Below, one piece after another: positions 29,491 through 32,419 of a stretch of 34,996 nucleotides of DNA. A model generated the notes under the pieces. It ran no database searches and had not been told where the DNA came from. It worked only from the letters and a program-made list of their open reading frames with translations. Location of the stretch: assembly GCA_030625815.1 (NCBI GenBank), contig DAOUQF010000035.1, positions 1 through 34,996 of the forward strand, given 5' to 3'. The stretch is from Eubacteriales bacterium (GTDB taxonomy: Bacteria; Bacillota; Clostridia; Tissierellales; GPF-1). The translations under genes were made by a program, and so were the position numbers. Position 1 is the first letter of the stretch; every line of letters starts with the position of its first letter.

Positions 29491-30062
29491 GATTGCTCCA
29501 CTCCCTTCAAAAAGTTCCGAATCATCTCCATCCCCAAGGGGGTGATGATGGATTCGGGATGAAATTGCACCCCGATTACTGGATATTTACGATGGCGCAC
29601 CGCCATAATTTCTCCGTCGTCCGCTTCCGCCGTGATCAATAGATCTCCCGGCAGACTGTCTCGATCGATCGCCAGAGAATGATACCGCGCTACCTGAGTC
29701 GGTGTTTCCACGTTTTTAAAAATCCCCACGCCGTCATGGTGAATCTGATCGCCTCGGCCGTGAACCAATTCCTTGGCGTATCCGATTTTGCCGCCAAAGG
29801 CTTCCCCGATGCATTGATGACCCAAGCAGACCCCCAAAATGGGAATGCGCTTGTAAAAGGCTTGAATAATCTCTACACAAGCCCCCGCATCTTTCGGCGC
29901 CTTCGGTCCCGGAGAGATGACAATCCCGTCGACATCCATCACCGCGATTTCCTTCACCGTGATCTGGTCGTTGCGCACCACCCGGATCTGATCGGTATAG
30001 TGTCCCAAATATTGATAGAGGTTGAATACAAAAGAATCATAGTTGTCAATCAATAGAATCAT
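29487..30062 (-). CDS. trpG: Anthranilate synthase glutamine amidotransferase subunit
   Basis: A 191-residue class I amidotransferase that releases ammonia from glutamine for TrpE. The catalytic triad is complete: C79 (GVCLGHQ), H168 and E170 (QFHPES). A PabA role in folate synthesis is often shared by this protein in Firmicutes and cannot be excluded. It overlaps the end of trpE by 17 nt, so the two subunits are translationally coupled. Confidence 0.96.
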   Translation of the reverse strand: MILLIDNYDSFVFNLYQYLGHYTDQIRVVRNDQITVKEIAVMDVDGIVISPGPKAPKDAGACVEIIQAFYKRIPILGVCLGHQCIGEAFGGKIGYAKELVHGRGDQIHHDGVGIFKNVETPTQVARYHSLAIDRDSLPGDLLITAEADDGEIMAVRHRKYPVIGVQFHPESIITPLGMEMIRNFLKGVEQS

Positions 30063-31464
30063 TTTCTTCCTCCCGCAAAATCTTCATCAAGGCCATCACC
30101 TTGTTGCCACACTCCTCGGCTTCCTTGGCCGGATCTGAATCGGCAACAATCCCTGCGCCGGCCTGCAAGACCAGTCGATACGCTTGATAAATCATCATTC
30201 GAATCGCAATGCAAAGATCCATATTTCCGTCATAACCGATATAACCGACGGCTCCGCCATAAATCCCGCGGCGCTCGGTTTCCAATTCCTCAATAATCTC
30301 CATGGCTCGCACCTTTGGCGCTCCCGACAGGGTTCCTGCCGGCAAGAAAGCTCTCAATACAGAAAATGCGTCTTCCTCCGGTCTTCTCATCCCCATGACT
30401 TCTGAAACGATGTGCATCACGTGGGAATATCGCTCCACCTTCAGTTGCTTGGGGATCTGAATCGAATCAAATTTCGCGATCCGACCCATATCGTTTCGTG
30501 CCAAATCAAGGAGCATCGTATGCTCGGACACTTCCTTGGGATCCGCCAGAAGCTCCGCCGCCAAGGCTTCATCCTGTGCCTTGTTCTTTCCGCGGGGGCG
30601 GGTGCCGGCGATGGGACAGGTGTCCACCCGATCCCCCTCCAGCCTCACCAGCATCTCCGGCGAGCTGCCAATCACTTCATACTCCCCGAATGAGAGATAG
30701 AAAAGATAAGGAGAAGGGTTCAGCATCCGCAGCTTTCGGTACAGCCGGAAGGGCGTTTCATTGGTTTCCACCATCCAGCGTCTCGATAGAACCACTTGAA
30801 AGATATCGCCGTCTCGAATATATTGCTTCGCTGCCTTGACTCGTTCCATAAACTCTTCTTTACTCGTTGCGCGAACCACTCGCGATTCACTCCGTATCGG
30901 TTCCTGCGCCTGAAGAGGCTGACAAGCCTCCACCTCCCGCTTCATTGCCTCCAAGGCTTTCTTGGCCCGCTGCCGCCCCGCTTCGTCTTTCTCCTCCAGC
31001 ACCAGCAAACTCAAGGTCTGATGATGATGATCGAAAACGAGCACTTGAGAAAAGAACATCAAATGCAGATCCGGCACTTCCAGATAATCTGGATTTTCGT
31101 CCGGTATCGATTCGAATTGGCGAATCAAATCATAAGCAAAGGTTCCAACAGCACCCCCAATAAAGGGAATCCCCGTTCCGTTTTCAACGGAGAAGCGATT
31201 GATCATTTTTCGCAGTTCTTCCAACCAATTTCCATTCCCTAGATAACGCATCCCCTTGGCGTCCTGAATCCTCATTCCCGCTCGGTCGGCGCGAACAATG
31301 GCTTCGGGGTTTTTCGCAATAAATGAATACCGCCCCTTCCGGTCCGCCCGGCTCTCCAGCAGGCATCCCGCCTGATCTTTCACATAGCCTTCATACAGGG
31401 TAATTGGCGTTAACCGATCGCCGTCCATTGTTGTTTGATAGACCTTGCATTCCCTTTGCTCCAT
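30046..31464 (-). CDS. trpE: Anthranilate synthase component I
   Basis: A 472-residue chorismate-using enzyme that makes anthranilate with TrpG, the first committed step of the pathway. The start at 31462-31464 has GGAGG eight bases upstream; a longer frame would run back into the T-box terminator. The LLES segment near residue 35 corresponds to the tryptophan feedback site. The C-terminal chorismate-binding domain has IQVVLSRR-type, IAGTRPRG, ARNDMGR and LPAGTLSGAPKVRAM motifs. First gene of the operon, directly behind the second T-box terminator. Confidence 0.97.
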   Translation of the reverse strand: MEQRECKVYQTTMDGDRLTPITLYEGYVKDQAGCLLESRADRKGRYSFIAKNPEAIVRADRAGMRIQDAKGMRYLGNGNWLEELRKMINRFSVENGTGIPFIGGAVGTFAYDLIRQFESIPDENPDYLEVPDLHLMFFSQVLVFDHHHQTLSLLVLEEKDEAGRQRAKKALEAMKREVEACQPLQAQEPIRSESRVVRATSKEEFMERVKAAKQYIRDGDIFQVVLSRRWMVETNETPFRLYRKLRMLNPSPYLFYLSFGEYEVIGSSPEMLVRLEGDRVDTCPIAGTRPRGKNKAQDEALAAELLADPKEVSEHTMLLDLARNDMGRIAKFDSIQIPKQLKVERYSHVMHIVSEVMGMRRPEEDAFSVLRAFLPAGTLSGAPKVRAMEIIEELETERRGIYGGAVGYIGYDGNMDLCIAIRMMIYQAYRLVLQAGAGIVADSDPAKEAEECGNKVMALMKILREEENDSID

Positions 31465-31497
31465 TCCGATTCCCTCCGTTTCTTTCCATAAAAAAAA

Positions 31498-31528
31498 CCA
31501 CATCAATCCCATAACTGGGACGATGTGG
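31498..31528 (-). terminator. T-box terminator 2, immediately before trpE
   Basis: Minus strand: CCACATCG...TGATGTGG outer stem with an inner TCCCA/TGGGA, one bulged base, loop GTTA, followed by eight T. The competing antiterminator pairs GGG and GCG of T-box 2 (31532-31550, canonical TGGTACCGCGG) with CGTCCC of this hairpin. Confidence 0.92.
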
Positions 31529-31531
31529 AAA

Positions 31532-31550
31532 CCGCGGTACCACCCAAATT
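31532..31550 (-). promoter_or_regulatory. T-box sequence 2 (canonical)
   Basis: Minus-strand GGGTGGTACCGCGG preceded by AATTT. The seven-base bulge TGGTACC contains TGGT, which pairs with the tRNA acceptor end. It lies 45-50 nt after terminator 1 with no second Stem I in between. Confidence 0.92.
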
Positions 31551-31575
31551 AGAAAACTCTTGGATCCAATTAAAC

Positions 31576-31605
31576 AAAAAAATCCCGCCCCTTTGGGACG
31601 AGATT
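31576..31605 (-). terminator. T-box terminator 1
   Basis: Minus strand: AATCTCGTCCC-AAA-GGGGCGGGATT, eleven base pairs including two G-T wobbles, followed by seven T. It is a complete intrinsic terminator upstream of the second T-box. Confidence 0.85.
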
Positions 31606-31613
31606 GTCATCTT

Positions 31614-31628
31614 CGTTTAACCACCCAA
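31614..31628 (-). promoter_or_regulatory. T-box sequence 1 (divergent)
   Basis: Minus-strand TTGGGTGGTTAAACG. It can form the standard antiterminator: TTGGG with CCCAA and ACG with CGT of terminator 1, leaving the seven-base bulge TGGTTAA. The ACC-GCG half of the T-box consensus is replaced by TAA-ACG, but pairing is preserved. Confidence 0.75.
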
Positions 31629-31878
31629 CACTCAAATCAAGTGTTTTCTCTCTCAACAGATACGGAATGATTCATCAATCGACTGATTGTCATTCGATAT
31701 CTTGCCCCTATAACGTGGGGATCCGGCATCGGGTACTCCTTGCGTTTCACCTAGCATCTCACAAATCCATTCTCCATCGTCTCCTGTATCGGACCTTTCA
31801 CCTACCGCCGACTCGCTAAAACAGCTTTCCATGGATACTCGTTTTGATCATCGCATTCGATTTTCAATTGTTTTTCCT

Positions 31879-31907
31879 ATCTTATCGGAACTCTTCGAAA
31901 TTGTAAA
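31879..31907 (-). promoter_or_regulatory. Promoter of the trp operon
   Basis: Minus-strand TTTACA (31902-31907), a 17-base spacer and TAAGAT (31879-31884). Predicted start near 31872, just ahead of the T-box Stem I. Confidence 0.65.
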
Positions 31908-31933: not shown

Positions 31934-32347
31934 TTATTCCGCGCTTCGCAGATCCCAATCCAATTCGTAGCTTCCCTGATGCTCCCCCTCCACTTGCAGG
32001 CGGTATTCTCCGCTGATGGGAATGGGGATGTCAATCTCAATGGGTTCCTCCGGATTGCTCACAGAATAGAGCCGCTTTCCATTGGGGTCGATAAAACTCA
32101 AGTTCAAGTCCCCCGAAGTGGTCTTGATCTCTGCCTCCAGATGAAAAACTTTCCCCTTCAAAAGGGCAATGGTGCGGTATTTGGTTCCCTCAAAGCTCTC
32201 GTAGGACTGCTTCATCTGACTGCCGAAATTGCTGCTGATGGACTTCTCGACGACATAGGTGCCGCCTTCGTTGCCGACGAAATAACGCATCCCAAAAACG
32301 CCCGCGGTCACGATCAGGGCAAGAATCAAGAGTGATTTGAATCGCAT
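31934..32347 (-). CDS. Small exported protein of unknown function
   Basis: A 137-residue protein I cannot name. It begins MRFKSLLILALIV, a short basic N-terminus and one hydrophobic segment (about 5-20) that serves as signal peptide or membrane anchor; there is no lipobox cysteine. The rest is predicted beta-rich and outside the membrane, ending in SGEYRLQVEGEHQGSYELDW. That ending resembles bacterial pre-peptidase C-terminal (PPC) beta-sandwich domains, but this is inference. The ATG at 32345-32347 has AAGGGGG nine bases upstream, and this SD is also the 3' arm of the uvrA terminator. The gene lies between uvrA and the trp promoter. Confidence 0.72.
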   Translation of the reverse strand: MRFKSLLILALIVTAGVFGMRYFVGNEGGTYVVEKSISSNFGSQMKQSYESFEGTKYRTIALLKGKVFHLEAEIKTTSGDLNLSFIDPNGKRLYSVSNPEEPIEIDIPIPISGEYRLQVEGEHQGSYELDWDLRSAE

Positions 32348-32350
32348 AGG

Positions 32351-32393
32351 AAAAAACCCCCTTTTCTTTACTCTATCAGAGAAAGCAAGGGGG
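32351..32393 (-). terminator. Rho-independent terminator after uvrA
   Basis: Minus strand: CCCCCTT...AAGGGGG with an inner CTTTCTC/GAGTAAAG stem and loop TGATA, followed by six T (32351-32356). It lies 27 bp after the uvrA stop. Its T-run and 3' arm fall inside the ribosome-binding region of the next gene. Confidence 0.85.
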
Positions 32394-32419
32394 CACAAAC
32401 ACTTTTCGGAATTTTCAGT

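Follow-up and report, generated by a model that had tools for sequence, protein, structure and literature searches.

T-box riboswitches, fully tandem trp T-boxes and partially tandem T-boxes are already known. In a transcriptional RF00230 T-box for tRNA-Trp, a Stem I with a UGG specifier, a T-box with the sequence UGGN and an antiterminator/terminator are found upstream of trpE. A partially tandem T-box has one Stem I and more than one antiterminator/terminator. In fully tandem trp T-boxes, which place more than one decision point before a trp operon in Bacillota-type bacteria, each unit has its own aptamer (available sections of PMC12452182). Double T-boxes in general may give a sharper response (as stated in the accessible part of PMC9413887), and partially tandem T-boxes are named as existing, with modes of action unknown, in the available sections of PMC7583486.

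The leader described here was found in an Eubacteriales bacterium within a window of 34,996 nucleotides, the whole stretch of DNA analysed, and all of its features lie on the minus strand. It extends over approximately 400 nt between a short ORF and trpE (30046-31465; TIGR00564, 540.5 bits, over cut-off; start ATG at 31465 picked by eye), the first gene of trpEGDCFBA, which is followed 3' by trpG, D, C, F, B and A. An Rfam scan with the T-box covariance model returned a single RF00230 match at 31860-31513, scoring 95 bits (gathering score, 93), and the UGG specifier agreed with the pathway encoded downstream. Consistent with the initial annotation, which had read one Stem I, a single Stem I was recovered (31758-31860, limits approximate, from the RF00230 alignment) with the UGG (Trp) specifier at 31767-31769 within GAAUGG. 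A promoter-like pair, TTTACA-17-TAAGAT (31879-31907), is a weak candidate, one such pair having been found in the region against 0.8 expected from shuffles. Further upstream, an ORF of 154 aa (31934-32398, minus strand) between uvrA and the trp leader had no NCBIfam match. The discriminator base of the genome's own tRNA-Trp was not found by a pattern search in which one of ten matches was followed up and was not a tRNA.

Two antiterminator/terminator modules follow the single Stem I, and the initial annotation, which had described a T-box and a terminator in each, was upheld on this point. In module 1 (M1), T-box 1 (GGGUGGUUAAACG, 31626-31614) lies in a predicted antiterminator (31595-31626; constrained fold -6.2 kcal/mol) composed of helix A1 (GGG/CCC), a 7-nt bulge UGGUUAA and helix A2, for which the previously noted ACG/CGU pairing was confirmed. 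The alternative structure is a terminator of 11 bp and seven T (31576-31605; stem 31605-31581, T-run 31582-31576; -13.4 kcal/mol), and both of the two sites returned by a terminator scan, against 0.5 expected from shuffles, correspond to this hairpin. In module 2 (M2), T-box 2 (GGGUGGUACCGCG, 31545-31533) lies in an antiterminator (31517-31545; RF00230 alignment, constrained fold -4.0 kcal/mol) with A1 GGG/CCC, bulge UGGUACC and A2 GCG/CGU. Its terminator (31490-31528) has a predicted fold of -19.0 kcal/mol and eight T at 31497-31490, and is absent from the list of the simple terminator scan. M2 closely follows M1 as had been noted, at a distance nearer 30 nt than the 45 nt first given. No second Stem I was found in the leader by the Rfam scan, and none would fit, because 30 nt separate the T-run of terminator 1 from the GGG of T-box 2. 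The leader thus lacks the two Stem I domains of the fully tandem class, each unit of which has its own aptamer, and under the general definition given above it most likely belongs to the partially tandem T-boxes. It differs from an ordinary RF00230 T-box in having a second module in the loop of Stem III.

This placement is evident in the Rfam alignment, which was viewed for the window alone: AGAAAAC, located before M1, is paired with GUUUUCU, located before M2, so that M1 appears as an insert of 81 nt in the loop of Stem III. The putative 5' strand of Stem III (AGAAAACACUUG, 31638-31649) forms 11 of 12 pairs with the 3' strand (CAAGAGUUUUCU, 31551-31562), which lies 3' of M1 and was identified by the RF00230 alignment and a pairing test; in a sister species (leader L026, genome G002) the strands are complementary at 12 of 12 positions. 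The only GAGAG-type sequence of the window (31650-31654), which fits the 5'-RRRxG motif described as preceding Stem III (available sections of PMC7583486), stands before M1, and the AA that follows Stem III in a canonical discriminator (31549-31550) stands before M2. If Stem III encloses M1, M2 of the window has the complete canonical discriminator of RRRxG, Stem III, AA and UGGNACC. The 5' strand is shared with a local hairpin of 6-7 bp immediately 5' of M1 (31627-31645; -6.0 kcal/mol), a rival for that strand which can form both in the window and in G002. The earlier description of two modules in series is therefore retained as to their number and amended as to their arrangement, as M1 is nested in the Stem III of M2. 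The reading that we favor, with a probability of about 0.7, is that one Stem I/Stem II holds tRNA-Trp while M1 lies between the split Stem III strands of the canonical discriminator of M2.

Relatives were compared at several levels. Within the order, 249 genomes were searched, a TrpE-family match was present in 49, and the curated cut-off was passed by 11. Each of the 11 had a two-module leader with a single Stem I (nine of these leaders were located via a motif pattern, two by reading the leader), and UGGY was retained in M1 throughout, so the comparison with related trp leaders proposed by the initial annotation bore out conservation of M1. The next-scoring TrpE genomes (G165 and G242) had single-module T-boxes, as did Lysinibacillus contaminans, and an Rfam scan found no T-box at nine further, lower-scoring trpE-like loci of the order. 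A third genome of the genus (G001) had neither a TrpE match nor the leader. The search with the two-T-box pattern was also extended to even samples of larger groups, comprising 391 genomes from the class and 398 from the phylum, and then to four families (20, 22, 96 and 6 genomes). As judged by eye, T-boxes besides that of the window accounted for 9 of 14 matches at the class level and 17 of 27 at the phylum level, and chance matches without T-box features for 6 of 15 in the order, 4 of 14 in the class and 9 of 27 in the phylum; the pattern also matches the backwards control. As the pattern demands GGTGGY in both modules, together with an A at position 5 of the M2 bulge, the 11 TrpE-anchored leaders are the only ones unselected for UGGY.

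A total of 55 double-module loci were extracted (37 in a first set and 18 later), of which 42 were kept. The 13 left out comprised five before genes that by eye resemble the serine pathway (L130, L136-L138 and L145), one before an asnA-like gene (L143, by eye), four before DAHP-synthase-like genes (L147-L150, by eye), one whose downstream gene was not examined (L134), and two trpE leaders in which M2 has its own Stem III (L142 and L144). The 42 kept leaders represent 11 families; 38 precede trpE and four (L124-L126 and L160) are nested trp leaders before trpB. GAATGG is present upstream of M1 in all 42. Each of the 33 leaders scanned had exactly one RF00230 match, some below the gathering score; the match spanned M1 through M2 in 24 (302-364 nt) and stopped with M1 in nine.

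The two modules differed systematically across these leaders. At M2, the AA linker was present in 39 of 42 and the bulge conformed to UGGNACC in 34 of 42, with A1 beginning with GGG in 36. At M1, the AA linker was found in 4 of 42 and ACC as the 3' half of the bulge in none; the bulge was UGGCAUA in 23, and A1 began with AGG in 37. M1 of the window follows this trend, since GUU precedes GGGUGG and the bulge is UGGUUAA, so that both the AA and the ACC of the canonical discriminator are lacking. For reference, among the other T-box matches of the same genome 22 of 23 were readable, with ACC in the bulge of 20, AUC in one and AAC in one; the genome as a whole (G000, 3.2 Mb) has 24 T-box matches, 21 over the Rfam cut-off. 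The altered M1 bulge is a rule of the element rather than decay because it is systematic (ACC in 0 of 42 leaders, UGGCAUA in 23).

The absence of AA from M1 in 38 leaders and of ACC in all 42 would also be expected if M1 were a tRNA-independent intrinsic terminator, situated in the Stem III loop and lowering basal read-through, with M2 alone sensing tRNA. The available sections of PMC7583486 describe tRNA binding as dependent on Stem III and its purines, and as very weak when an antiterminator has no Stem III; M1 may therefore be wholly unresponsive to tRNA. However, a plain terminator requires neither UGGY, which is complementary to the tRNA end and was retained in M1 of all 11 TrpE-anchored leaders, nor the M1 antiterminator pairs, which were 98% formed in 27 leaders; the sequence there is too conserved for covariation within the M1 antiterminator to be judged. 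We consider this explanation unlikely.

The enclosing helix was assessed by a permutation test in which the strand preceding each M1 was folded either with its own partner, the strand preceding M2 of the same leader, or with the corresponding strand from a different family. In 24 trp leaders from 11 families, the energy was -12.4 kcal/mol with the own strand and -6.4 kcal/mol (sd 0.6) across families, and 0 of 2000 permutations were as low. The same was true when all 37 loci of the first set were used, those later excluded among them (-12.6 versus -7.2 kcal/mol; 0 of 2000), and in the later set of 12 leaders from nine genera (-8.4 versus -5.2 kcal/mol; 0 of 2000), which is not fully independent of the first, as family f58 already had two leaders there and L167 is from the same genus as those two and near-identical to L120. 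For individual leaders, no foreign strand paired as well as the own strand in 14 of 24 and at least one did in 10 of 24; in L119, L028, L029, L030 and L031 several foreign strands matched the own-strand pairing.

For the examination of covariation, 27 leaders of the 42 (families f16, f58 and f166) were aligned; 79.3% of the cells of the enclosing helix were paired. The covariation score was 0.278 versus 0.155 in shuffles (0 of 500 reached it) and at most 0.107 in versions in which the helix had been slid, and the cells changed on both sides numbered 27 versus 11.7 in shuffles (0 of 500). The number of pairs with a double change, one of five covariation measures, was within chance (81 of 500). 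The base of the stem in family f166 formed the series G-C, G-U and A-U, and one A-U pair of Stem III was replaced by G-C in family f5. From sequence and comparison, the anatomy of one Stem I, two modules, a conserved M1, and a strand before M1 that pairs with the strand before M2 is well supported.

A simpler possibility is a partial tandem repeat, in which the two modules have separate Stem IIIs and the long-range pairing arose incidentally through duplication. The excluded leaders L144 and L142 fit this model, with local M2 hairpins of -11.1 and -7.9 kcal/mol, respectively, and L027 and L028 have local hairpin options at both modules. Among the 42 leaders, however, the enclosing helix was in every case the stronger structure when compared with the local hairpin before M2, and this hairpin was -3 kcal/mol or weaker in 38, the exceptions being L027, L095, L129 and L169 (-4 to -5 kcal/mol); before M1, a local hairpin of -3 kcal/mol or better within 27 nt was found in 14 of 42. 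Furthermore, the AA linker precedes M2 and not M1, and the position of the GAGAG of the window, before M1, likewise argues against two separate stems. Independent Stem IIIs were thus mostly rejected, and we regard the tandem-repeat model as quite improbable for these leaders. A point less favorable to nesting is that the helix found automatically ended 5-7 nt from M2 in only 27 of 42 leaders, the control value being 26.9%.

It is highly improbable that M1 is a functionless decaying duplicate, as the initial annotation had suggested as an alternative: although the window bulge departs from UGGNACC, this reading is largely contradicted and was rejected, given the UGGY retained in 11 of 11 TrpE-anchored leaders, the recurrence of one altered bulge, the M1 terminator hairpins and T-runs seen in 24 of 24 trp leaders folded (hairpin energies, -11.0 to -20.9 kcal/mol), and a leader that with its M1 is 89% identical in the same-genus genome G002, where TrpE is 65% identical.

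Folding analyses of transcripts ending after the 3' strand of Stem III predicted minimum-energy structures with the enclosing Stem III formed and terminator 1 inside it in 6 of 6 leaders folded. In the window copy, the enclosing Stem III was shortened in these folds and the local M1 hairpin persisted, and in the longest window transcript the minimum-energy fold exchanged the enclosing Stem III for other pairs. In some leaders, the T-box of M1 was predicted to pair with the stretch following terminator 1 (UUAAAC/GUUUAA in the window, CCAC with GGUGG in family f166). This sealing was not equaled in 500 simple letter shuffles of the flank (16 of 19 groups with a long enough flank) and only weakly exceeded that obtained with flanks taken from other groups (38 of 2000). 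Support is thus mixed for such sealing, which we put forward as a suggestion at the level of individual lineages.

A two-step decision, as proposed by the initial annotation, is the natural functional reading of one specifier domain and two modules, and from the nested layout we infer a two-gate function. Transcription would offer M1 first. With charged tRNA-Trp, most transcripts would stop at terminator 1; with uncharged tRNA, the CCA end would engage M1 and the polymerase would go on. The 3' strand of Stem III would then emerge, close around the looped-out M1, and set the discriminator of M2 in its canonical position, allowing M2 to read the same Stem I-bound tRNA a second time. For read-through, the polymerase would have to pass both gates, so that leakage would fall and the response would become steeper. 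Because the 5' strand of Stem III in the window can also form the hairpin of M1, closing of Stem III would there dismantle the platform of M1. A fuller version of the nested reading, offered tentatively and judged less likely to hold in all its parts than to fail in some, is a strand exchange in which a stripped-down M1 reads the tRNA and the long-range Stem III then loops M1 out and hands the 3' end to M2, with sealing of the M1 T-box in some lineages and a difference in stringency between M1 and M2, since M1 is devoid of elements to which the sensing of aminoacylation or the stabilizing of the discriminator has been ascribed.

Nesting offers a concrete, testable answer to how partially tandem T-boxes might act: one ruler, Stem I with its tRNA, could serve two switches because Stem III would close after the first has been read. 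If true, the leader would be a naturally occurring RNA device by which a single ligand is interrogated two times, and the layout would predict which mutations uncouple the two gates. This layout, which many related leaders share, suggests that one tRNA undergoes two checks before transcription reaches the genes. Neither a module nested in Stem III nor an asymmetry between M1 and M2 was found in the literature searched, as far as its texts were accessible. The T-box catalogues of Vitreschak 2008 and Gutierrez-Preciado 2009, where a nested layout might be noted, lie beyond that literature, and novelty of the layout is therefore not proven. The nested layout does not appear in the accessible portions of PMC7778990, PMC2494555, PMC11477304 and PMC9382623.

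Several other arrangements were observed at other loci. The leaders L130, L136-L138 and L145 are double-module T-boxes with a single match that precede the serine-pathway-like genes (by eye), and two of them, L130 and L138, show pairing between the strands that precede M1 and M2 (-11.4 and -14.2 kcal/mol, respectively). A different double-module type is represented by L142 and L147-L150, in which a CCCGUACCU-like stretch, the end of the helix preceding Stem III, occurs again 3' of terminator 1. A GAGNG and a Stem III of its own come after this second copy, and M1 thus appears to be nested one helix earlier; the genes 3' of this type are DAHP synthase-like in four cases (by eye) and trpE in L142. 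In L119, a SAM riboswitch (RF00162; 1082-1187, minus strand) adjoins the nested trp leader on the opposite strand.
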